A stretch of 31,625 nt of DNA from a virus. Shown piece after piece: positions 5,610 to 25,379 of the stretch; position 1 is the stretch's first letter; each line of letters opens with the position of its first letter. The DNA is taken from positions 1 to 31,625 of the IMG/VR virus record IMGVR_UViG_3300020421_001872; one strand, given 5' to 3'. A model generated the notes under the pieces. The model was not told the origin of the DNA. It ran no database searches and worked only from the letters and a program-made list of their open reading frames with translations. Both the position numbers and the translations under genes were made by a program.

Positions 5610-5669
5610 AGTATATAAGAGTTAGGGAAAGGGTCCTTGCTCATAAACATAACAGTCGGGGATGACATT

Positions 5670-6710
5670 ATGAAAAAAGATACTTTAAACTATGTAAAAG
5701 TTAAGGCTGGTACATACCGTAAAAACGAAATCGTTAATACAGTATTTCCAGTTATTAAGCCACTTAACATTGGCAAAAAGGGTGCTTTTATTACCGTAGA
5801 TGGTAGTGAAGCAATGGGCGATAAATTTTCTAGCATTAGGATTTTAATTGAAGATCCTACTAGGGACTTGGAATATGTAACTCCTAGTGTTTATGCAGAA
5901 CAGCCTAAAATCGAAAACACTCCAAAAGAAGAAGAGAGTGAAAAAGATGCTATTGAGAGAATCAAAGAAAGATTTGATATTCTTGATAGAATGACTCATG
6001 CAGTAGCAGAAGGTACTGTAAGGGGTATGATTGTAAGTGGCCCTCCAGGAGTTGGTAAGTCATTTGGTGTTGAAACTGTTCTTGAAGAATACGACATGCT
6101 TACTCAGGTTGCTGGTAAACCTGCAAGGACTGAAGTTGTAAAAGGTTCTGTGACACCAATTGGTTTGTTCCAGACATTGTTTAACAACTCTGCACCTGGT
6201 AACATATTAGTATTTGATGACTGTGATAGTGTATTGTTTGATGAAGTATGTTTGAACATGCTCAAGGCTACACTTGATTCAGGTAAGAAACGATACATTA
6301 CTTGGAAGTCAGAGTCCCAAGCACTTCGTAGGGAAGGTATACCTGATAGGTTTGAGTTCAAAGGTGGTTGTATCTTTATTACTAACGTGGACTTTGAAAA
6401 CGTTCGTAGTAAGAAAATTAAGGATCACTTGGCGGCACTTATGTCAAGATGTCACTACTTGGATCTTACAATGAACAGTATTAAGGATAAGTTTATCCGA
6501 ATCAAGCAAATTGTTAGGGACGGTATGCTTGATGAATACAAGTTTGGTAAAGAAGGCGACCAAGAAGTTATAAACTTCATGCTTGACAATGCAGACAAAC
6601 TTCGTGAAGTTAGTTTGCGTATGGTTCTTAAGATTTCAGACCTTAAGAAGATGGAGCCTAAAAATTGGCAGTCATTAGCCAGAACAACTTGCATGAAGGG
6701 TGCAATATAA
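5670..6710 (+). CDS. AAA+ ATPase of unknown role
   Basis: 346 residues from ATG 5670; an in-frame TTG at 5637 would add 11. A leading beta-rich region (about 1-75) is followed by an AAA+ module. Walker A is GPPGVGKS (124-131). Walker B is LVFDDCDS (Asp183-Asp186). A sensor-1-like ITN is in CIFITNVDFE, and an arginine-containing segment LMSRCHYLDL follows. This resembles single-domain ATPases of marine T4-like phages, perhaps a helicase loader or remodelling factor. It has its own promoter and is followed by a terminator, so it is probably transcribed alone. The substrate is unknown. Confidence 0.85.
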   Translation: MKKDTLNYVKVKAGTYRKNEIVNTVFPVIKPLNIGKKGAFITVDGSEAMGDKFSSIRILIEDPTRDLEYVTPSVYAEQPKIENTPKEEESEKDAIERIKERFDILDRMTHAVAEGTVRGMIVSGPPGVGKSFGVETVLEEYDMLTQVAGKPARTEVVKGSVTPIGLFQTLFNNSAPGNILVFDDCDSVLFDEVCLNMLKATLDSGKKRYITWKSESQALRREGIPDRFEFKGGCIFITNVDFENVRSKKIKDHLAALMSRCHYLDLTMNSIKDKFIRIKQIVRDGMLDEYKFGKEGDQEVINFMLDNADKLREVSLRMVLKISDLKKMEPKNWQSLARTTCMKGAI

Positions 6711-6723: not shown

Positions 6724-6809
6724 TGCTAACGGTTCCCTGGTGCTCATACGTTAGTCATCCCCCAATAGAGCACCAAGATGCCCGGAGTTTCCTCCGGGCA
6801 TCACTTTTT
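6724..6809 (+). ncRNA. Candidate structured RNA: H-type pseudoknot followed by intrinsic terminator
   Basis: Stem 1 pairs CTAACG (6726-6731) with CGTTAG (6749-6754). Its loop carries TGGTGCTC (6738-6745), which is perfectly complementary to GAGCACCA (6768-6775) downstream; together they form an H-type pseudoknot with 6-base, 3-base and 13-base connectors. One base later the perfect terminator hairpin begins. A late promoter motif would start transcription at the 5' edge of stem 1, giving an RNA of about 86 nt. It could instead be the 3' end of the ATPase mRNA or a regulatory element controlling that terminator. I do not recognise a known riboswitch class. Confidence 0.45.
6777..6809 (+). terminator. 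Perfect rho-independent terminator
   Basis: An 11-bp perfect stem, GATGCCCGGAG (6777-6787) with CTCCGGGCATC (6792-6802), has a TTTC tetraloop and is followed by a short T-run (6805-6809). It is far more GC-rich than its surroundings. It separates the AAA+ ATPase from the TonB-receptor transcription unit. Confidence 0.93.
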
Positions 6810-6830: not shown

Positions 6831-6858
6831 TTGACTTTTCCATAATAAGACGTATAAT
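6831..6858 (+). promoter_or_regulatory. Sigma-70-type promoter (TTGACT-16-TATAAT) for the TonB-receptor gene
   Basis: TTGACT at 6831-6836, 16-base spacer, TATAAT at 6853-6858. The predicted start near 6865 leaves a leader of about 22 bases containing GGAG (6878-6881). It lies just after the terminator, so the receptor gene starts a new unit read by host-type sigma. Confidence 0.82.
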
Positions 6859-6886
6859 TATAAGTTGTTAATAACCTGGAGAAAAT

Positions 6887-8620
6887 ATGAATTCAATTAA
6901 CAAGGAACGTGTGGAGAAAGAGAGTAATAAAAACTTTCATATAAACTTCTCTCCAATGTACGCCATGTTTGCCTGGTCATTGATATTTGCAATAGCAGTA
7001 TGTCTTAGTCCAAAAGCAAACGCAGAAGAAATAGAAGAAGTTGTAGTAGTGGGACAACAAAATACAACTGTAAAAGCAGACCCACTAAAAGGTAATTCTT
7101 TAATAAGAGCATTACTACCTGGTCATACATGGACTGCTGGTGGTTATGGTGCTTTCCAAGGATACAATGAACGTGGTGCCCAAAATGTGCATACCGCAGT
7201 TTACAAAAATGGCATACCAGCAAACTTGCCTGGTAGTGCATGGTTTGATTTTGGTAATGAACTAGCAACAGGACAAGAAGTAAAAATTATTACTGGCGGT
7301 AATAGTGTTGTGTATGGCAGTGGCAGTATTGCTGGTACTATATTAATTAAAGATAATATTGAACAAGGTGTTACTGCAATATTAGGTTCACAGGATCACA
7401 AAATGGTTAGTGTTGCACCTGCAAAATGGTTTCAATATACTGCAATGGAAATCAATCAAGATAGTGTTAGAAATGATAATACTGAAAAAGACTTGTACAC
7501 GAATAGAAATGCAAAGTTAAATTTTGATGTACAAGATTTTAGAATCACAATGGACTACACTGATTACAGTTATGATTATGACAACTGTTATGATTCTAGT
7601 TTTAATCAGTCTAATGAATGTGAGCAAGATGGTCAAAAATACAATATCGCATTAAACAATGAATATTTTACATTAGGCAGAACACATGACAAGGCAGACT
7701 ATTACACAGGCGAATGGATGTCATATGCAAATGAAAGTAGTACAGATTACTTAAGAGTTGGTGACCAAACTAACCTATCTAATAAATTGCAAATTGCATA
7801 TGGTGTAGATGCTAGTCATGAAAAGTATCAAAGTCTAAACAACGAAGAACATAGCAGAGACAATTATGGAGCATACTTAAATATCAATGCCGACTTTGCC
7901 ATGAAATACAACTTTGGTTTTAGAGTTGGCAATGAAGACCAGAACGCATTAAGATTTGGTTTAGAAAGCGGACCATTCTTTTTTAATGTTGGTAACAGTT
8001 ATAGAAGACCTACACTTTATGAATTACATGGTGACGGTTGGGTTGATGCTAACTTAGACTTACTGCCTGAAGAAGGTGTTGGTTACGAAATTGGATTTGG
8101 TGTATTAAGTATTTTTAAATATGAGTTTGAACAAGCAATAGAATATACACCAGGTGGAAGTAATGATGTTATTAGTGTAACTTATGATGCAGAAGGTAAT
8201 GCTAGTACAACCACTACAACAGAATACTACAATCCAAAGTATTACAACACAGGTGCATACGACACACAAGGTATTAGATACTCGCAATGGTTTGGTAATT
8301 TTATGATTACATTAAAATATACAGACACAGAACAAGCAAGAGTGCCTAAGTATATTGGCGTAGTTAAATGGAACCAATCATTTGGCAGTCATGAATTTGA
8401 TATTACTTATAGAGGTAACTTTGAAAGAATACCTGGTCTATATGATGGAACAGAATTAGAGGACTTGCAAAACTTGTCTTTTAGATATATTAAAACTTTT
8501 GCTAACAAAGTTGATTTAGCATTAACAATAGACAACATCTTAGATGAAGAAGTAGAAGTACTTCCAGGATATAACAATCGTGGAAGACAAATTATGTTGA
8601 CAATTCAAAGGAAATGGTAG
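6887..8620 (+). CDS. TonB-dependent outer-membrane receptor
   Basis: 577 residues with the full layout of a TonB-dependent receptor. An extended signal peptide has its hydrophobic core at about residues 25-42 and a predicted cleavage after ANA (about 47). A TonB box EEVVVVGQQ follows, then a plug domain (about 60-155) with NERGAQNVHTAVYKNGIP and VKIITGGNSVVYGSGSIAG. The barrel (about 160-577) is rich in alternating aromatic strands and ends TIDNILDEEVEVLPGYNNRGRQIMLTIQRKW, with the typical C-terminal aromatic residue. It is slightly smaller than BtuB (about 600 aa). The ligand is unknown: siderophore, cobalamin or another substrate. It lies between phage genes, and the uvsW promoter is inside its 3' end, so it is integrated rather than stray host DNA. 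Possible roles are nutrient uptake during infection or receptor replacement/superinfection exclusion. Confidence 0.88.
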   Translation: MNSINKERVEKESNKNFHINFSPMYAMFAWSLIFAIAVCLSPKANAEEIEEVVVVGQQNTTVKADPLKGNSLIRALLPGHTWTAGGYGAFQGYNERGAQNVHTAVYKNGIPANLPGSAWFDFGNELATGQEVKIITGGNSVVYGSGSIAGTILIKDNIEQGVTAILGSQDHKMVSVAPAKWFQYTAMEINQDSVRNDNTEKDLYTNRNAKLNFDVQDFRITMDYTDYSYDYDNCYDSSFNQSNECEQDGQKYNIALNNEYFTLGRTHDKADYYTGEWMSYANESSTDYLRVGDQTNLSNKLQIAYGVDASHEKYQSLNNEEHSRDNYGAYLNINADFAMKYNFGFRVGNEDQNALRFGLESGPFFFNVGNSYRRPTLYELHGDGWVDANLDLLPEEGVGYEIGFGVLSIFKYEFEQAIEYTPGGSNDVISVTYDAEGNASTTTTTEYYNPKYYNTGAYDTQGIRYSQWFGNFMITLKYTDTEQARVPKYIGVVKWNQSFGSHEFDITYRGNFERIPGLYDGTELEDLQNLSFRYIKTFANKVDLALTIDNILDEEVEVLPGYNNRGRQIMLTIQRKW

Positions 8621-8626
8621 TATAAT
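8597..8626 (+). promoter_or_regulatory. Consensus promoter (TTGACA-18-TATAAT) placing the start site at the uvsW ATG
   Basis: TTGACA at 8597-8602, 18-base spacer, TATAAT at 8621-8626 immediately after the receptor stop codon. Only six bases separate the -10 from ATG 8633, so transcription would begin at or next to the start codon. No ribosome-binding site is visible, consistent with a leaderless mRNA. Confidence 0.8.
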
Positions 8627-8632
8627 AACAGT

Positions 8633-10090
8633 ATGGCTAAATGTGTTCTTGAAATAAGAGATGAAGTAAATGTGAAATTCGTTGGATTAGACGTCAAAAC
8701 AAGACGTGCAATATCTGACGAAGCCAAATATTTTTTACCTTATGCATATCATATGCCTGCTTATAAACTAGGCAGATGGGATGGTTGTGTAAGGTATTGT
8801 GATATTGGCGGCAGAACTTACATGAACATATTAGACAAACTGTTACCCATTGTGCAAAAAGCAGGATATGAGATTGAAATAGATGACAAACGTCACCCTT
8901 ACAATTTTAACTTTCCTGCTATAACCGATACTAGGTATGAAAACACAATGTGGCCCAAAGGTCATCCTGCTGAAGGAGAGCCTGTAATTTTAAGAGACTA
9001 TCAAGTTCAGGTTATTAATGAATTTTTAAAGAACCCACAAAGTTTACAGGAGGTGGCTACAGGTGCCGGTAAGACGCTCATAACCGCCGCCTTAAGCGAT
9101 ATGTGTGAACAGTATGGTAGAAGTATTGTTATTGTTCCCAACAAAGACTTGGTAGTACAAACTGAAAGAGACTATAAGAATTTGGGTCTTGATGTTGGTG
9201 TGTTGTTTGGTGATAGAAAAGAATATGACAAAACCCACACAATATGTACTTGGCAAAGTTTGAGTATATTAGAAAAGAAAAGTAAAAACTATGAAGCAGA
9301 CTTTCCGTTAGATGATTTCATTGACGGTGTTGTATGTATTATGGTTGACGAAGTTCACAAAGCAAAAGCAGATGTGTTAAGAAATCTTTTAAGTGGACCT
9401 TTTAAACATGTACCAATACGTTGGGGTTTAACTGGAACAATTCCAAAAGAAGAACATGAAGCAGTTGGTTGTGTATGTAGTATAGGTCCTGTTATAGGAA
9501 ATCTTAGTAGTAAAGAATTGCAAGACAGAGGTGTACTAGCAGAACTAGACATAAACATTTTCCAATTACAAGACGGTGTATTAGGTTTCAATAACTATGC
9601 ACAAGAACTAAAATGGCTTGTAACAGACGATGGTAGAGTTAATCATATTAGCGAAATCATTAGAGGTTTGAGCGGGAGTGGTAATACACTGGTGTTAATA
9701 GATAGATTAGCAACAGGTGAATTACTAATTGAAAAGAACCCAGACTGGGTGTTTATCAGTGGAGATATGAAAGTAAAGGACAGACAGTCTGAGTATGCTG
9801 AAATATCAGAAGCAGATAATAAAGTCATTGTTGCTACATATGGTGTGGCGGCAGTTGGTATTAACATACCTAGAATATTTAATTTAGTACTTTTAGAACC
9901 TGGCAAAAGTTTTGTTAGGGTAATACAAAGTATAGGAAGAGGTATTCGTAAAGCAGAAGATAAAGATTATCTACATGTCGTAGATATTACCAGTAATCTG
10001 AAATACAGTAAAAGGCATTTAACAAAAAGAAAAGCATTTTATAAAGAGCAAGGATTTCCGTTTACAGTAACAAAAGTGGAGTATAAATGA
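8633..10090 (+). CDS. uvsW: UvsW-like ATP-dependent DNA helicase
   Basis: 485-residue superfamily-2 helicase, near T4 UvsW (503 aa), which unwinds and remodels branched DNA and R-loops and helps switch from origin- to recombination-dependent replication. An N-terminal domain (about 1-110) contains the UvsW-like AYKLGRWDG. Motif I is ATGAGKT (142-148), motif II is DEVH (239-242), motif III is LTGT, and motif VI is QSIGRGIRK (432-440). The first residues align well with the expected UvsW N-terminus, so ATG 8633 is right even though no ribosome site precedes it. It is the first gene of a long overlapping operon; its stop overlaps the next ATG (ATGA). Confidence 0.93.
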   Translation: MAKCVLEIRDEVNVKFVGLDVKTRRAISDEAKYFLPYAYHMPAYKLGRWDGCVRYCDIGGRTYMNILDKLLPIVQKAGYEIEIDDKRHPYNFNFPAITDTRYENTMWPKGHPAEGEPVILRDYQVQVINEFLKNPQSLQEVATGAGKTLITAALSDMCEQYGRSIVIVPNKDLVVQTERDYKNLGLDVGVLFGDRKEYDKTHTICTWQSLSILEKKSKNYEADFPLDDFIDGVVCIMVDEVHKAKADVLRNLLSGPFKHVPIRWGLTGTIPKEEHEAVGCVCSIGPVIGNLSSKELQDRGVLAELDINIFQLQDGVLGFNNYAQELKWLVTDDGRVNHISEIIRGLSGSGNTLVLIDRLATGELLIEKNPDWVFISGDMKVKDRQSEYAEISEADNKVIVATYGVAAVGINIPRIFNLVLLEPGKSFVRVIQSIGRGIRKAEDKDYLHVVDITSNLKYSKRHLTKRKAFYKEQGFPFTVTKVEYK

Positions 10091-10598: not shown

Positions 10599-11351
10599 AT
10601 GAAATACAAATATAGAATAGATGGTGGAAGATACGGAGGAGAACTTGCAGTAGGTACTGTAACAGATGAGTTCGTTGAATATTGGGCACCTAAAATTGAA
10701 GAAGAAGGAGCATATGAATCCTTTATACCGCATGTACTTTGTTTAAGTGAATGGGATGATGATGAAGATATCGATTCTAAATCTCCTAGCATAATGGAAG
10801 ACAGTAATGAAATTCCAGGTTGGTATGAAGTAGACGACATTGAACACATTAACAATGCTTATGCAGATGGCGGCTTTACAGTTACTAACATCACTGATGA
10901 AGATGACGAGTGGGCATACAATGAAAATGAAATAGAAGTCGAAGGTCATTGTCTAAAAGGTAGGGAAGGTGCTTATATCAGCACTGATGACCCTGCAGGA
11001 GAGTATGAGCCAGAAGATTACACTCCAGTAATGCTATTTCATAGTTCTGAAAAAGGTGGCTTTGCAAGTTGGTTTGTGGAAACAGACGAACCTTTTGAAC
11101 CTAACAAACTAGTGTTCAGTATTGTAGAAACACATTTAGGTGAATTTGTAGAAGATGTTTGGTATGATAAAGAACTACTAGAAGCAAACTTTGACTATAA
11201 CGATACAACAGGTAAAAGTTATGAAGCCGCAGTTGGGTGGATCACAAACAAATGGAGAGACCCTTATGTTGATCCTGAAGATGCAGACCTAACAGAAGCA
11301 TGGGAAGAATATGATTCAGACATAGAATGGGAATTAGAGAATGGATCTTAA
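10599..11351 (+). CDS. Very acidic hypothetical protein
   Basis: 250 residues, AGGAGG-type ribosome site upstream, overlapping the next gene by 11 bases. Asp and Glu are abundant throughout, with runs such as EWDDDEDIDSK and a strongly acidic tail ending DSDIEWELENGS; Trp and Tyr are also frequent. The protein has no membrane segment or recognisable catalytic motif. High acidity with many aromatics is compatible with a DNA-mimic or partner-binding protein, but composition alone does not establish that. Confidence 0.8.
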   Translation: MKYKYRIDGGRYGGELAVGTVTDEFVEYWAPKIEEEGAYESFIPHVLCLSEWDDDEDIDSKSPSIMEDSNEIPGWYEVDDIEHINNAYADGGFTVTNITDEDDEWAYNENEIEVEGHCLKGREGAYISTDDPAGEYEPEDYTPVMLFHSSEKGGFASWFVETDEPFEPNKLVFSIVETHLGEFVEDVWYDKELLEANFDYNDTTGKSYEAAVGWITNKWRDPYVDPEDADLTEAWEEYDSDIEWELENGS

Positions 11352-11871
11352 AGATGTAATAAAAACTGTACCTGATTTTCCTGTAAAAGGAATCATGTAC
11401 AAAGATGTTACTAGTATTTTAGAAAATCCACAAGCATTCCAATATACTGTTACTAAACTAACAGACTATTGTTTGAGGAATAAAATAACGGATATTGTGG
11501 CTCCTGATGCCAGAGGATTTCTTTGGGGAAGTCCGATAGCATTAGATATGGAAATACCATTACACATTGTTCGTAAGCCAGGTAAACTGCCAGGACCGTT
11601 ACATACACATCATTTTACATATGAGTATGCAGAAACTAACTTAAACATAAAGCAAGACGCAAAATTAGGGCCAGACAGCAACGTTTGTATCATAGATGAT
11701 GTAAGTGCTACGGGTGGTACTGCAAGTGCTATATACGAGCTCTTACAGAACTTTAGAGTATCAGAAATTAAATATGCATGTGTAATAGACTTGACTTTTT
11801 TACAAGGTACTGCTAAACTAAAAGATTACTGTAATGTAGATACATTTAGTGTGGTTGAATATGATGCGTAA
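11341..11871 (+). CDS. apt: Adenine phosphoribosyltransferase
   Basis: 176 residues, close to bacterial APRT (about 180). The enzyme makes AMP from adenine and PRPP. The N-terminus (IKTVPDFPVKGIMYKDVTSILENPQAF) aligns closely with E. coli Apt. ARGFLWG and VRKPGKLPG are family motifs. The PRPP-binding loop is VCIIDDVSATGGT (Asp119, Asp120). The C-terminus FSVVEYDA resembles the Apt end. It overlaps the next gene, a nucleosidase that would release adenine, so the two form a salvage module. ATG 11341 overlaps the previous gene; no clear ribosome site, suggesting coupled translation. Confidence 0.93.
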   Translation: MDLKDVIKTVPDFPVKGIMYKDVTSILENPQAFQYTVTKLTDYCLRNKITDIVAPDARGFLWGSPIALDMEIPLHIVRKPGKLPGPLHTHHFTYEYAETNLNIKQDAKLGPDSNVCIIDDVSATGGTASAIYELLQNFRVSEIKYACVIDLTFLQGTAKLKDYCNVDTFSVVEYDA

Positions 11872-12415
11872 TATAATTTTAATAGCCTTAGAACAAGAAG
11901 CACCTAATATGGCAGAATGGGAAAACGTATTTTTTACAGGTGTTGGAAAAGTAAATGCAGGTATTACTGCGGCTAGATTAATAGAAAAGTATCAACCTGA
12001 AACAGTTTTTAACTTTGGTACTGCAGGTGGTGTTAGTGTATCCAGTGGCATACATGAAATACAAAGTTTTATACAACGTGATATGATGTGTTGTGAATTA
12101 GGATTCGAAGAAGGACAAACTCCTTTTGAAGAAGAAAGTGTTATTAGTTTTGGAGATGTTATAAGTGACATGTGTTGTAGTACTGGTGATAATTTTGTTA
12201 GTGGTTATTCAGATGATTGGGCTATCACAGATGTGGTAGACATGGAAGCCTATGCAATAGCAAAAGCATGTAAACAAGCAAATGTAAATTTTAGATGTTT
12301 TAAGTATATAAGTGACCAAGCAGATAAAAACGCAAACACAGATTGGCAAGAAACAGTTGCAGATGGTGAAAAATATTATATAAAACTCTTTGAACAAATT
12401 ATAGGCGGAAGTTAA
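11861..12415 (+). CDS. mtnN: MTA/SAH nucleosidase-like protein (PNP/UDP phosphorylase superfamily)
   Basis: 184 residues from ATG 11861 (ATG 11864 or GTG 11849 are alternatives). MTAN cleaves 5'-methylthioadenosine and S-adenosylhomocysteine to adenine. Sequence landmarks match E. coli MTAN: ALEQEA (Glu13, for Glu12), TGVGKVNAGITAARL, FNFGTAGGV, VVDMEAYAIA (Glu129, for Glu174) and KYISDQAD (Asp152, for Asp197). All three catalytic residues are therefore present. It is about 50 residues shorter than E. coli MTAN (232), lacking part of the N-terminal sheet and some loops. It overlaps apt, and its stop overlaps the next start. Specificity (MTA, SAH or another adenine nucleoside) is not decided by sequence alone. 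Confidence 0.85.
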   Translation: MMRNIILIALEQEAPNMAEWENVFFTGVGKVNAGITAARLIEKYQPETVFNFGTAGGVSVSSGIHEIQSFIQRDMMCCELGFEEGQTPFEEESVISFGDVISDMCCSTGDNFVSGYSDDWAITDVVDMEAYAIAKACKQANVNFRCFKYISDQADKNANTDWQETVADGEKYYIKLFEQIIGGS

Positions 12416-20503: not shown

Positions 20504-20776
20504 ATGTCACAAGGTAAAACACGAACAATTTTAGAAGAACTTAACTCTATCAGTGTTGATAGAAATAAGCACCATGTACTTGAAAATAGAGTAGAACATT
20601 TAGTTAGTGGTGTTGAAAATGTTAAGAAAATTCTAAGAGAAGCATATGATGAATCCACTGCATTAGACTTAGAACGTAGAATGATAAACAGTTTAAAAAG
20701 TGGTGATTCTAAAAAATTCTCACGTGGCATTAAAAAAGTAATTAAAGAGAGCCACGATGACAATCCAAATTCGTAA
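20504..20776 (+). CDS. Small late protein upstream of the giant protein
   Basis: 90 residues, helical and charged, starting MSQGKTRTILEELNSISVDRNK and predicted to form coiled-coil helices (EHLVSGVENVKKILREAYDESTALDLERRM). It overlaps the 1540-aa gene by 20 bases, so its translation is coupled to it. AGGAA precedes the ATG. Likely a virion or assembly partner of the giant protein by position; there is no recognised domain. Confidence 0.78.
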   Translation: MSQGKTRTILEELNSISVDRNKHHVLENRVEHLVSGVENVKKILREAYDESTALDLERRMINSLKSGDSKKFSRGIKKVIKESHDDNPNS

Positions 20777-23700
20777 TGACATAAATCTAATAACAGAAAG
20801 TATTGCTATAAATGAAGCATGGCAAGAACTACCATTAGAAGTAAGGGAAGACCTTAAAACATTAGTTCAAGAATTAAAAAGACTCGATGAGGCTCCTTTA
20901 CAACCAGACCAAATTCAAACAGTATTTTCACAAATGGTCACCAATAGAGGTGAAGGTGGAAATACACAACAGTTAGCAAAAAAAGTCCAAGCACAATTAA
21001 CACCATTATTTGCTAAAATCACAGGCAACCCTAAACTAAAAGCAGTACTAAGCAAAGTTGGTAATGCAGTACCTATCGATGGTATTAAGAAAATGGTTGC
21101 AAAACTACCTGACCCGGCTGGTAAAGCCGCCACTAATGTTGTAGCACAAATACAACGTGGTGCTCAAACAATTGAAAATGATGAAGACGTTGCGGCATTC
21201 AAAGGAATGATGATGTTGGTAATCACAATTGGTATGGGTGCGGCAGGAGTTGGTGGTCCAGCGATGTTGGGTGTTATTGGAACTGCGGCAGTATTTAGAA
21301 CTGTAGTAGATAGTGCCATTAAAGCCGCGGCAGGTGGTACAGTTGCAGATGTTGGTAAGACAGCGGCGGCTGGATTAGCCAAAGGTGCTATTGCAGGTGC
21401 AGTTGGTATGGCAATTGGAGAACTTGCAAACGAATTATTTCCACCAGAAGTTTCACAATCATTTATGTCAGCAGACGGAACTGAAATTGACTTCAATCAA
21501 TTAGAAGCATACAATGTTGCTGATGTATCAGAACTTACACCTGAATCAGCAGGAGAATTATTAAAGGCACAAGGAGCCTTTGAACAGATGATTAAATCAT
21601 CTGCTATGGATGGTGCCGACTTTACAGATGAACAAATTGAAATTATTAAACAAGCAAATCAAGATTTAGCAGATAAAATTACAGGATTAGGTGGACAAGA
21701 CCAGTTAGAAGAACTTTCAGGACTTACAGGTTCTGACTTAGAACAAGTAACAACTGCAAGAGCAAATATAACTTTTGCTGATTACGAAGTTCAAGATGGT
21801 GACAACCTAAGCATGATTGCTTACAATAACAATGTTGCTGTTGACGATTTAGTACAGGCTAATCCAGATATAGAAGACCTTAACAATATACAACCTGGAC
21901 AAACAATCAAAATACCACCTAACTTAGGATCAGGTGCATTAAATCCTGATGATATATCTGATTTAGATGCATTAACTGATCCTCAGGATACATATCGAGG
22001 TGGAGTTGGAGCAGGCGACGATGCAGTTGACCAAGCCGCAATAGGCAAAGCACAAGACCAATTTGGAATGAATGCAGTGGATACTAATATTGATCCTGAT
22101 AGTGCCTTAGGAGCCGCTGGTGCAGGTGGAGAAGTTGATTTAACAGGTTTAGAATTATCACCAGAAGCAGAAAAAGTATTATCAACATTTAAAGTTGACC
22201 CTGCTAGTTTAGACAATAACGGTCCTGCATTAGGTGAACTAATGCAAAGAAGTGGATTGACCGATGAACAAGCAACAGAAATTCTTACTAAAGCAGGAGC
22301 CAGTCCAGCAAATATTGAATCAACAGTAGCACAGGCTAGAGAATTTGCAGGTCCTGTAGATCCAAGTATAGATTTAGATGCTCCAGAAGGAGATTTTGAC
22401 ACAAGTGATTATGATGGCGATGGAAAAATTGATGCAATAGATAAAACAGTCTCTAGTCAAGGTAGTGTAAGTGCCGCAGAATTAAAACAAGCAGGAATGA
22501 ATCTAGACACTATACAAGAACTTGGCCCAGAGTCAATGGAAGTATTAAATGGATTAGATTTAGATCCTGAAACATTAGAAAGTGTAAAACAATGGATAGA
22601 GATTGAAAAAACATTAGATGTTGAAAAATTTATGGGGCAAGAAATCAGTGCTGAAAATATTTTAAGTACTGAATATGGACCAGTTGCACAACAGGCTCTA
22701 GATGATTCAGGTGCAACAGTTGATTCATTCGCAATGAAAGATGCTTCTACATTACAATCAACAATTAAAATTACTTTACCTGGCATGGATTCTCCATTAG
22801 AAGGTATTGCTAGTTATGATATACAAAATAATGGTGCAGTTTTCAGTACAGATGTACAACTAACTGCTAATCCAATGGGAGATTGGGCAGACAGTTTAAC
22901 ACCAGAACAAGCAGATGCAATATTTGGACTTAAAGATTTACCGTCTGGATTATCAGACATTAATACTGCTGTTGACAGCACGGCACAAAATTTATTAAAA
23001 GCAGTGGCAGTACCAGCCGCGGTTGTTGCCGTAAAAAGTTCAGACGAAGCAGTACAAGAATTACAAAAAAGAACAAAAGAAACAAAAGAATCTTTTGTAC
23101 ACCCACAGTGGAAAGAATTATTATCAGAAGAAATTGGACCAGAGTTTGATGCATTTGCAAAAGAATATGGTGATGAAGTGGCAGTATATGCCATGTTTGA
23201 ATGGTACAACAAATGGATTAAAGAACATACAATAGTATTAGAAGGCTTTGAACATTTACAAGAATATAAACTTGTTGAAAATATAGAATCATTGTTAAAA
23301 GAAGCACCAGGTGACGAAGAGCAGGCAAGTCTTATTCCACCCGCAGGATCAACACAAGCACCAGCCACACCAGCAGGAGCAGGTGTTCAAGATACAGGCA
23401 AAGAAAAAGGCGGCGTTGTTAGAGGAATAGGTAAAGCATTCAGAAAGGCAACAGGTGCCATTGGTAAAGGTGTTGCAGGAGCAGTTGGCGGTGCAATAAA
23501 CGTACTAGTAAAACCAATCTTAAATAGTGCTCCAGTAAAAGGTTTCTTAAACAAAATACAACAAGCAGTTGGTATGCAGGGTGCAATAGATCCTGCTAAA
23601 CTACAAACAGATTATGAAGGCGCAGGTTCACCAACAGATTCAGATGAAGTTGGTAAATTCTTAATTAAAAATGCAGGTGCAACAAAAGGCGAAGTTGATG

Positions 23701-25379
23701 CCGCATTTAAAGGTGCAGGTGTAGACGCACAAGCACCAGAAGAAACACCAGATGATGATCCAACTCCTCCAGAAGGCGGAGATACTCCTCCAGGTGGCGA
23801 TACACCTCCAGGTGGTGGAGAAGAACCTAAACCAGGCGAAGAACCTAAACCAGGCGAAGAACCTAAACCAGGCGAAGAACCTAAAGGTGGTGCTACAGGC
23901 GGTGGTGCCGGTGGTGCTACAGGCGGAAAAGAAACACCTAAAGGAGCAACAGGTGGAACAGATGGCAATGCATTTGATCCAAACAAACCAGACAATCCAA
24001 ATATTAGGAAAGCACCTCAAGTAGATGCACAAGGCAAAAGAACTGGTGGACTGATTTTTGATCCTCAAAATGAAACATATTATGTATATGGTACAGACGG
24101 GAACTTATATCCAGCAGATAAAAGTGGTAAAGTAACAGACAGAAAACCACTTAATAATGATAGTTTACAAGCAAAAAGAATTCAAGGTATATTCACTCCA
24201 GGTATGGAAATAGATCCTAAAACAGGTGAAGAGAAACCACGTGGTGGTGGTCAAGTTGGCAATCCAAAAGGAACAGAACCTGAACTAGATCCAGTAACAG
24301 GAAAGCCAGTTGGGTTAATTAGAAAAGGTATGCAAGCCGTTGGTAAAGCATTAGGCGGACCTTTAGCAAAAGCCACAAGAGGCGACAAAGATGCAGGTGG
24401 CTTGCAAAAAGCAGGCGGAGTAGTTGGTGCAGGCGTTGGTAGAGCAATGGGTGCCGTTGCTAAAGGCTTAGGCAAATTAGCAGGTGGCAGTAATACACCA
24501 GCACAACCTAATCCAAACGATACAAACAATGATGGTAAAGATGATAAAACAGGTAAACCTGTAACTCCACTTATCAACCCAGGACCAGGCACACCTCCAC
24601 CAGGTACAGCACCAAAACCTACTACACCTCCAGTTGATACAAACAAAGATGGTGTTGATGATAAAACTGGTGCAGAAGTAGATGCAGACGGTGACGGTAA
24701 AAATGATGTTACAAAGAAACCAGTTAAACCAGGAAACAGACCACAAGGTGGCGGTAGACAAAAAGGTGAGTTAAGTCAAACACCCGGTGCTATTAAAAAA
24801 CGTCAAGCAAGAGCAGACGCAAAAGCAAAAGCACAGGCAGATGCAAACAAAGATGGTAAAGATGATGCAACTGGAGAACCTATTCAGCAACAACCAGCAA
24901 CAGCAGGGCAACCTAATGTAGGTGGTAAAGGTGCCGCTCAAGCAGATGCACAAGCAGGTGATATTGCCGCAAGAAAAGATGCAGTTGCACAGAGTAAAGC
25001 ACAAAAAGGTGCAATTACTCCACAAGACCATCAATTAATAAGAAATGATTTAGCCGCACTGGCGCAGACTAAAGATCCAAAAATTGCAAGAAAAATTGCA
25101 GACAAATTAAGTGCATACAAAGACCAAGGAACAGATGTATCAGATTATGCAAATTCCTTAAATGCTGTACAAAAGAAAGCAGGTATTAAAGGAACAGCGG
25201 CAAAAAGTGCTAGAGCATTACGTTCTGAAGCATATCAGTTTATGAACAGCATACTAGAATCTGTAAATTTAACTTGGCAAGATATAGGTTATGATGTTAT
25301 AATGTTAGAAGAACAAACAGAATATGTATATCTAGTCCCTGCAGGATTACAAAGGATTAGAGAGTTAGCCGGTGTATAA
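20757..25379 (+). CDS. Giant (1540-aa) LysM-containing repeat protein, probable virion component
   Basis: Order of parts: helical N-terminus (1-140); Ala/Gly-rich hydrophobic stretch (about 145-225) like membrane-inserting segments; LysM domain (about 343-388, YEVQDGDNLSMIAYNNN), which binds peptidoglycan sugars; Asp-rich loop DYDGDGKID (551-559) resembling an EF-hand or dockerin; helical middle; second Gly/Ala stretch (about 886-923); Pro/Gly/Glu-rich linker with PGEEPK repeats (about 1022-1045); third Gly/Ala stretch (about 1195-1243); Asp-rich NDGKDD-type loops near 1255, 1294 and 1362; helical C-terminus. The loops resemble thrombospondin-type-3 or EF-hand calcium sites. There is no lysozyme or amidase motif. 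A structural or ejected protein that meets the cell wall is the best guess, based on LysM plus hydrophobic segments and the late position. Confidence 0.8.
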   Translation: MTIQIRNDINLITESIAINEAWQELPLEVREDLKTLVQELKRLDEAPLQPDQIQTVFSQMVTNRGEGGNTQQLAKKVQAQLTPLFAKITGNPKLKAVLSKVGNAVPIDGIKKMVAKLPDPAGKAATNVVAQIQRGAQTIENDEDVAAFKGMMMLVITIGMGAAGVGGPAMLGVIGTAAVFRTVVDSAIKAAAGGTVADVGKTAAAGLAKGAIAGAVGMAIGELANELFPPEVSQSFMSADGTEIDFNQLEAYNVADVSELTPESAGELLKAQGAFEQMIKSSAMDGADFTDEQIEIIKQANQDLADKITGLGGQDQLEELSGLTGSDLEQVTTARANITFADYEVQDGDNLSMIAYNNNVAVDDLVQANPDIEDLNNIQPGQTIKIPPNLGSGALNPDDISDLDALTDPQDTYRGGVGAGDDAVDQAAIGKAQDQFGMNAVDTNIDPDSALGAAGAGGEVDLTGLELSPEAEKVLSTFKVDPASLDNNGPALGELMQRSGLTDEQATEILTKAGASPANIESTVAQAREFAGPVDPSIDLDAPEGDFDTSDYDGDGKIDAIDKTVSSQGSVSAAELKQAGMNLDTIQELGPESMEVLNGLDLDPETLESVKQWIEIEKTLDVEKFMGQEISAENILSTEYGPVAQQALDDSGATVDSFAMKDASTLQSTIKITLPGMDSPLEGIASYDIQNNGAVFSTDVQLTANPMGDWADSLTPEQADAIFGLKDLPSGLSDINTAVDSTAQNLLKAVAVPAAVVAVKSSDEAVQELQKRTKETKESFVHPQWKELLSEEIGPEFDAFAKEYGDEVAVYAMFEWYNKWIKEHTIVLEGFEHLQEYKLVENIESLLKEAPGDEEQASLIPPAGSTQAPATPAGAGVQDTGKEKGGVVRGIGKAFRKATGAIGKGVAGAVGGAINVLVKPILNSAPVKGFLNKIQQAVGMQGAIDPAKLQTDYEGAGSPTDSDEVGKFLIKNAGATKGEVDAAFKGAGVDAQAPEETPDDDPTPPEGGDTPPGGDTPPGGGEEPKPGEEPKPGEEPKPGEEPKGGATGGGAGGATGGKETPKGATGGTDGNAFDPNKPDNPNIRKAPQVDAQGKRTGGLIFDPQNETYYVYGTDGNLYPADKSGKVTDRKPLNNDSLQAKRIQGIFTPGMEIDPKTGEEKPRGGGQVGNPKGTEPELDPVTGKPVGLIRKGMQAVGKALGGPLAKATRGDKDAGGLQKAGGVVGAGVGRAMGAVAKGLGKLAGGSNTPAQPNPNDTNNDGKDDKTGKPVTPLINPGPGTPPPGTAPKPTTPPVDTNKDGVDDKTGAEVDADGDGKNDVTKKPVKPGNRPQGGGRQKGELSQTPGAIKKRQARADAKAKAQADANKDGKDDATGEPIQQQPATAGQPNVGGKGAAQADAQAGDIAARKDAVAQSKAQKGAITPQDHQLIRNDLAALAQTKDPKIARKIADKLSAYKDQGTDVSDYANSLNAVQKKAGIKGTAAKSARALRSEAYQFMNSILESVNLTWQDIGYDVIMLEEQTEYVYLVPAGLQRIRELAGV
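23820..23886 (+). repeat. 18-bp tandem repeat encoding PGEEPK units
   Basis: Three identical 18-bp copies (unit GAAGAACCTAAACCAGGC) and a partial fourth, 23820-23886, in frame inside the giant gene. They encode the repeating PGEEPK in a flexible linker. Such repeats can change copy number by slippage without breaking the frame. Confidence 0.9.

Follow-up and report, generated by a model that had tools for sequence, protein, structure and literature searches.

A phage family of BtuB-like TonB-dependent receptors with a shortened plug connection, encoded beside uvsW

In Gram-negative bacteria, scarce nutrients enter mainly through TonB-dependent receptors (TBDRs), which are also common phage receptors. 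A gene for such a protein in viral DNA raises the question of whether it belongs to the phage genome and, if so, whether it feeds the infected cell or keeps other phages out. The original prediction for this locus had offered both roles. Our data lean towards uptake, by the conservation of the TonB box, plug and loops. The stretch of DNA analysed, hereafter the window, spans one entire IMG/VR viral record (31,625 bp, 35% GC) and encodes the T4-type replication genes for a gp32-like SSB, UvsX, a DnaB-type helicase, UvsW and thymidylate synthase.

Locus, promoters and distribution among viruses

The TBDR open reading frame covers exactly positions 6887–8620 (+ strand, 577 aa) and, as had been predicted, sits between the genes for an AAA+ ATPase (5637–6710, +; PHROGs match to phrog_1250) and the UvsW helicase (8633–10090, +; PHROGs match). 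Its GC content and third-position GC resemble those of the neighbouring genes. A strong intrinsic terminator (6777–6802, +), an 11-pair stem with 8 GC pairs and a subsequent T-run, closes the AAA+ gene upstream and would insulate the TBDR gene. It is followed by a sigma-70-type promoter, TTGACT-16-TATAAT (6831–6858, +; 11/12 consensus match), and by a Shine-Dalgarno sequence, GGAG (6878–6881, +), which was read from the sequence and also precedes the gene in most relatives. The uvsW promoter, TTGACA-18-TATAAT (8597–8626, +; 12/12), overlaps the last TBDR codons. Both the near-consensus promoter ahead of the gene and the uvsW promoter in its tail had been proposed originally, and the former recurs widely: an 11–12/12 promoter was found upstream of 52 of 72 distinct TBDR-family genes (picked by TonB-box pattern), with 0.4 expected from shuffles. 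The sigma-70 consensus, and this alone, suggests an ‘early’ timing. Further downstream, the window encodes a 1540-residue protein (20757–25379, +) with Pro/Gly-rich low-complexity repeats and, by eye, a LysM-like segment, which is probably structural.

When viral contigs were selected by UvsW only, 72 of the 80 best loci had the TBDR as the gene immediately before uvsW, in most cases with the AAA+ gene on its other side, and one locus was too short to judge. A protein search of viral contigs returned 43 loci with the TBDR and a plug-alignment search 169 matches, of which 80 were kept; loci overlap between the searches and some share contigs, so that these counts do not represent independent genomes. 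Five loci without the TBDR have a clean site of ~116 bp with a terminator-like sequence and the uvsW promoter. In two others (L218 and L219), a deletion is flanked by the TBDR promoter with codons of the leader on one side and by the final TBDR codons on the other, which reads as a clear remnant of the gene. Between the AAA+ gene and uvsW this remnant holds tandem copies of the promoter-like sequence TTGACGCAGTAAAGTGTATAAT, and a promoter similar to that of the window persists before uvsW even here.

In other contigs (L015, L031–L037, L042, L043 and others), a nucleosidase gene precedes the TBDR instead. The window itself has an adenine phosphoribosyltransferase gene followed by an MTA/SAH-nucleosidase-like gene (11341–12415, +), a pair that might form a route from MTA or SAH to AMP. 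An obligate link between the TBDR and such purine/SAM salvage was considered and rejected: the genes are adjacent in one clade, but neither the 250-kb relative (G014) nor several fragments gave a match to PF01048.

The pairwise identities of the AAA+ protein correlate with those of UvsW at 0.84 and with those of the TBDR at 0.35. For one pair of loci (L010 and L021), identities are 0.96 for the AAA+ protein and 0.94 for UvsW, and only 0.49 for the TBDR, while a further locus (L120) combines the upstream part of one clade with the TBDR and downstream part of another. TBDR alleles have been partly exchanged independently of their neighbours, and the gene has been lost repeatedly. The lineage probably consists of jumbo phages, since its longer members attain 217 and 250 kb. 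Among isolates, UvsX and UvsW find their best matches in jumbo phages of Proteobacteria. The TBDR-bearing viruses are probably a widespread group of large bacterial viruses, and parallels in the literature suggest a marine one.

Architecture of the receptor and kinship to BtuB

The 577-residue product was predicted to be a TBDR with a plug, and this assignment is borne out by a Pfam Plug match (PF07715; E 6e-7, 30.4 bits against a curated cut-off of 23.9), by the match of the family HMM to BtuB and by the AlphaFold2 model with its structural match. Plug is matched in 20/20 aligned relatives; the window sequence matched no Pfam barrel model. Residues 1–46 (6887–7024, +) form a leader, a putative signal peptide with the hydrophobic stretch AMFAWSLIFAIAVCL and an ANA preceding EEIEE. 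Behind the ANA, at the end of this long leader, the sequence continues as EEIEEVVVVGQQ; the stretch EIEEVVVVGQQ follows the ANA. The TonB box, originally given as EEVVVVGQQ, is IEEVVVVGQQ at residues 49–58 (7031–7060, +). In 91 distinct phage ORFs, it stands at an identical place relative to GGxG, with one E and one V conserved in 100% and the first Q in 99%, a count that was anchored on GGxG and did not use the box itself for selection. A shortened plug domain (7061–7360, +) leads into a β-barrel (7361–8617, +) of the 22-strand TBDR type, as judged by DSSP of the model and the structural match to BtuB. The C-terminal residue is W, in agreement with the predicted aromatic end.

The family has two exchangeable leader types, of which the window leader is one. 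In L077 (303–2267) and L079 (5258–7234), the mature parts are 99% identical, with leaders of unrelated types that are 21% identical. The long type has a conserved DKNFHINFSPLY-like segment ahead of the hydrophobic stretch, and neither type was found on any other protein in the loci examined. The TBDR N-termini of L230, L232 and L234 carry a His-containing insertion (DHNVTWHGHTVDE) between leader and TonB box, which could possibly bind metal.

A profile of 20 relatives aligns to E. coli BtuB over nearly its full length (E 2e-5; model positions 68–580), and hhalign of the family profile against BtuB gave a probability of 97.5%. A first AlphaFold2 model built from 20 sequences was of moderate confidence (pLDDT 68) and already matched TBDRs; with 44 sequences, the model reached a pLDDT of 83.7 and a pTM of 0.81. 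This model has both plug and barrel, and its best match in the PDB is the BtuB:TonB complex (Z 37.4, 2.9 Å over 503 residues). Cobalamin transporters from E. coli or Bacteroides thetaiotaomicron fill all of the top 15 structural rows; they include the sequence-divergent BtuB proteins of the latter, and the heme receptor ChuA (Z 31.3) comes next. Because the score gap between BtuB and ChuA is small, the fold ranking is a hint on the ligand and not a proof. The identity as a phage-borne TBDR with plug, TonB box and its own sigma-70-like promoter is strongly supported, and the protein shows the full set of leader, TonB box, plug and 22-strand-type barrel.

The phage protein resembles BtuB in its full-length fold, size, TonB box, plug and acidic loops at positions 2 and 3. 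However, it is only ~18–20% identical to BtuB and has its own pair of invariant cysteines, and cobalamin binding is only a candidate property. The window TBDR matches no BtuB family model (NF007926/TIGR01779), and its best relative scores ~20 bits against cut-offs of 600–836. In SusC proteins, a carboxypeptidase-regulatory-like domain precedes the TonB box, whereas the box lies directly behind the leader here, without such a Pfam domain. The Lc porin of the lambdoid phage PA-2, which displaces OmpC, is also phage-coded; it is trimeric, acts in a lysogenic setting and has neither plug nor TonB box. The two have in common that a phage-coded outer-membrane barrel would alter the infected cell surface, but Lc has a porin fold without a plug and the window protein a plug and TBDR fold, so that the originally drawn comparison stands as an analogy only.

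A TBDR search by tblastn of 50,697 phage records found no relative, and PHROGs gave no convincing family for the window TBDR. INPHARED records matching a cellular TBDR were, among the matches listed, mostly bacterial-looking or unannotated faecal contigs. Only one related viral model was present in BFVD, a longer SusC protein (805 aa, 12% identical) from an uncultured marine phage, which we infer to be of the Mar_Mega_1 type. Phage TBDRs as such are already known from a few reports, namely SusC of the marine megaphage Mar_Mega_1 (PMC9723777) and a TBDR annotated in pelagiphage Skadi-1 (PMC10504331). The SusC-like TBDR of Mar_Mega_1 and LR745206 is likewise phage-encoded and marine, and nutrient uptake has been proposed for it (PMC9723777). 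The Skadi-1 gene, also a marine phage gene annotated as TBDR, differs in lying among tail-tube and capsid genes, and its authors take it as a pointer to the adsorption receptor (PMC10504331). This comparison uses the published description of the Skadi-1 gene; the window protein matched no phage record. In the literature searched, which included few subscription papers and preprints, a widespread phage-specific BtuB-like family with a short plug connection appears undescribed.

Two scans of cellular genome contigs yielded no close TBDR relative, with ~31% identity over the plug only in Kordiimonadales and others, and the best match in 398 Pseudomonadota genomes scored 52 bits over the N-terminal part only; this cellular sample omits Bacteroidota and some likely hosts. 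These scans pointed to no particular host. Kordiimonadales were considered as the source of the gene and found unsupported, the match being weak and confined to the plug. A tree of 44 phage and 15 cellular TBDRs groups the phage proteins in a single clade (100/100 support) whose stem measures 2.17 changes per site; the small cellular sample and the long branches restrict what the tree can tell about the origin.

Other envelope-related genes occur in the longer relatives. CsgG genes are present in G014, G426 and G423, and a locus from the 250-kb G014 (L135:8697–13079, −) has a curli-type cluster in which CsgG (E 4e-48) and CsgF (E 3e-11) are accompanied by a protein with a FecR domain and by one with weak curlin repeats under the Pfam cut-off. 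In pelagimyophages and Melnitz, curli pores of the CsgG/CsgF type are a further case of outer-membrane pore genes in marine T4-like phages, but their fold and machinery are unrelated to those of the TBDR (PMC9004378). Those phages are reported to have csgF and csgG without csgA/csgB (PMC9004378), which makes possible fibre subunits in the L135 cluster of interest. The 250-kb relative further encodes a DUF481 outer-membrane-type protein (L141:1850–2530, −; E 3e-22), an exported plastocyanin/azurin-family copper protein (L131:3744–4178, −; Pfam Copper-bind, E 4e-18) and a radical-SAM protein with weak matches to the STM4011 and prokaryotic viperin families (L131:9031–10104, −).

The TonB box–plug connection and the acidic loops

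Two traits of the family were absent from the original prediction, namely a shortened connection between TonB box and plug, and near-invariant acidic loops. The distance from the TonB box to the GGxG anchor is 28 residues in the phage proteins compared with 45 in BtuB. Measured to the LPG-type anchor, which in typical TBDRs lies ~37 residues from the box, it is 21 residues in the phage family and 34–37 in 13 cellular sequences, a set that includes one probable false ORF (L161). The plug lacks ~16 residues that cellular TBDRs have between TonB box and core. Matches to the Plug model begin at model position 9–38 in the phage records and at 2–9 in the cellular matches listed, which are the best-scoring ones and thus biased to complete plugs. 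Since the model places the first plug strand (residues 59–63) directly after the TonB box, it seems to be mainly the linker that is missing. The short connection is a variant trait and does not define the TBDR superfamily.

The acidic motifs fall into two predicted extracellular loops. In loop 2, whose counterpart in BtuB was assigned from the order of the strands together with the HMM alignment, lies R-N-D-N-x-E-x-D-x-Y (residues 195–204; 7469–7498, +), and in loop 3 YDYDNC...NEC with two invariant cysteines (residues 229–245; 7571–7621, +). In the family forms, RNDNxExDxY and YxYDNC...NxC, most residues are invariant in 45 proteins that are <90% identical. BtuB binds B12 by its loops L2 to L5 and Ca2+ in a five-aspartate cage (PMC7360065). 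In the HMM alignment, the phage YDYDN segment falls on YGYDN of BtuB, and the RNDN motif is in the loop that in BtuB, by strand order, holds TDNDG. The conserved acidic residues of the phage TBDR are in the same two loops as those of BtuB, a correspondence drawn at the level of the loop.

Predicted extracellular loops are not more variable overall than the strands, with conservation values of 0.71 and 0.62, respectively. Loop length varies, with insertions after residues 318 and 438; loop numbering by strand is uncertain beyond residue ~400. Over 54 close pairs, which are not independent, dN/dS is 0.13, and the gene is under strong purifying selection. By part, dN/dS rises from 0.036 in the TonB box through 0.088 in the plug, 0.093 in the acidic loops and 0.12 in the other barrel to 0.27 in the leader; the sets for dN/dS, loops, promoters and identity correlation were picked by TonB-box pattern, which possibly biases the value of the box low.

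Uptake during infection and its alternatives

Our preferred reading, to which we give slightly better than even odds (about 0.55), is that the TBDR is a phage-adapted BtuB-like importer that takes up one conserved, scarce ligand during infection. It builds on the TBDR architecture, the purifying selection, the promoter, the site beside replication genes and the conserved box, plug and acidic loops. Host RNA polymerase would transcribe the gene from its own sigma-70 promoter, and the product would be exported via Sec and inserted by the host BAM machinery. Host TonB-ExbBD would then energise the receptor, and the imported ligand, common to the whole phage family, would benefit the phage. A search of 14 phage records, most of them fragments, gave no match to a TonB C-terminal domain, and the phage TBDR would for this reason depend on host TonB.

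As ligand, a corrinoid (vitamin B12-like) may be guessed first and a metal or metal complex second. Against a corrinoid stands that the guess derives from how the folds rank, with BtuB also one of the TBDRs closest in size, and that no BtuB family model is matched by the window protein. B12 for a class II ribonucleotide reductase was considered and rejected for the 250-kb relative, whose enzyme is of the iron-dependent class Ia and does not require B12; as a consequence, B12 would serve host enzymes and not the phage reductase. The import reading itself is weakened by the phages of the group that lack or lost the gene and by the MTA/SAH-nucleosidase gene not being linked to the TBDR everywhere, and the missing plug linker could hamper normal TonB coupling. 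In a more specific version, which we consider doubtful, the protein would be a virus-specific corrinoid importer with its TonB box joined all but directly to the core of the plug. The force of host TonB would then reach the plug without the usual linker, in a TonB-driven gate that the virus has tuned to the cell it infects.

Superinfection exclusion, in which the phage protein would displace or cover a host TBDR that serves related phages as receptor, is unlikely, if the best-surviving of the alternatives. It would fit the exchange of the TBDR independently of its neighbours (L010/L021), its optional presence and its variable loop lengths, as well as the established use of TBDRs as phage receptors. 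However, displacement requires neither a constrained TonB box and plug nor near-invariant motifs on the ligand side, and among the sampled cells there is no close relative to mimic. A mask would moreover be expected to be most variable in its outer loops. We favour uptake over masking because the TonB box, the plug and the two putative ligand loops are precisely the conserved parts.

There is a slim chance that the protein is a gated pore or lysis aid, its shortened plug leaving a channel that leaks or opens easily and would help release, or the influx of small molecules, at a late stage of infection. The box–plug connection is short in all 91 proteins, and the 217 and 250 kb relatives also encode CsgG-type pores, for which a phage CsgGF proposal exists (PMC9004378); yet the gene's promoter follows the host sigma-70 pattern, and the model shows an intact plug core. 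Slimmer still is the chance of TonB titration, where the TonB box of an abundant phage receptor would occupy host TonB-ExbBD and thereby bar TonB-dependent phages or bacteriocins. This would account for the conservation of the TonB box, and the short linker might confer an unusual TonB affinity, but the conserved extracellular loop motifs and plug are left unexplained. Chance carriage of a host gene, or an artefact of the contig, found no support (the viral record is a fragment) and is refuted by the same site in dozens of viral contigs (72/80 of the uvsW-selected loci), the gene’s own promoter, a dN/dS of 0.13 and the single deep phage clade, and the TBDR is part of the phage genome, as originally proposed.

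If the uptake reading is true, these viruses would control the nutrient uptake of the cells they infect, by keeping or altering it. The shortened plug connection offers a natural experiment on how TonB opens such gates, and this phage TBDR lineage provides a simple test of whether a viral receptor feeds the cell or shuts out rivals.
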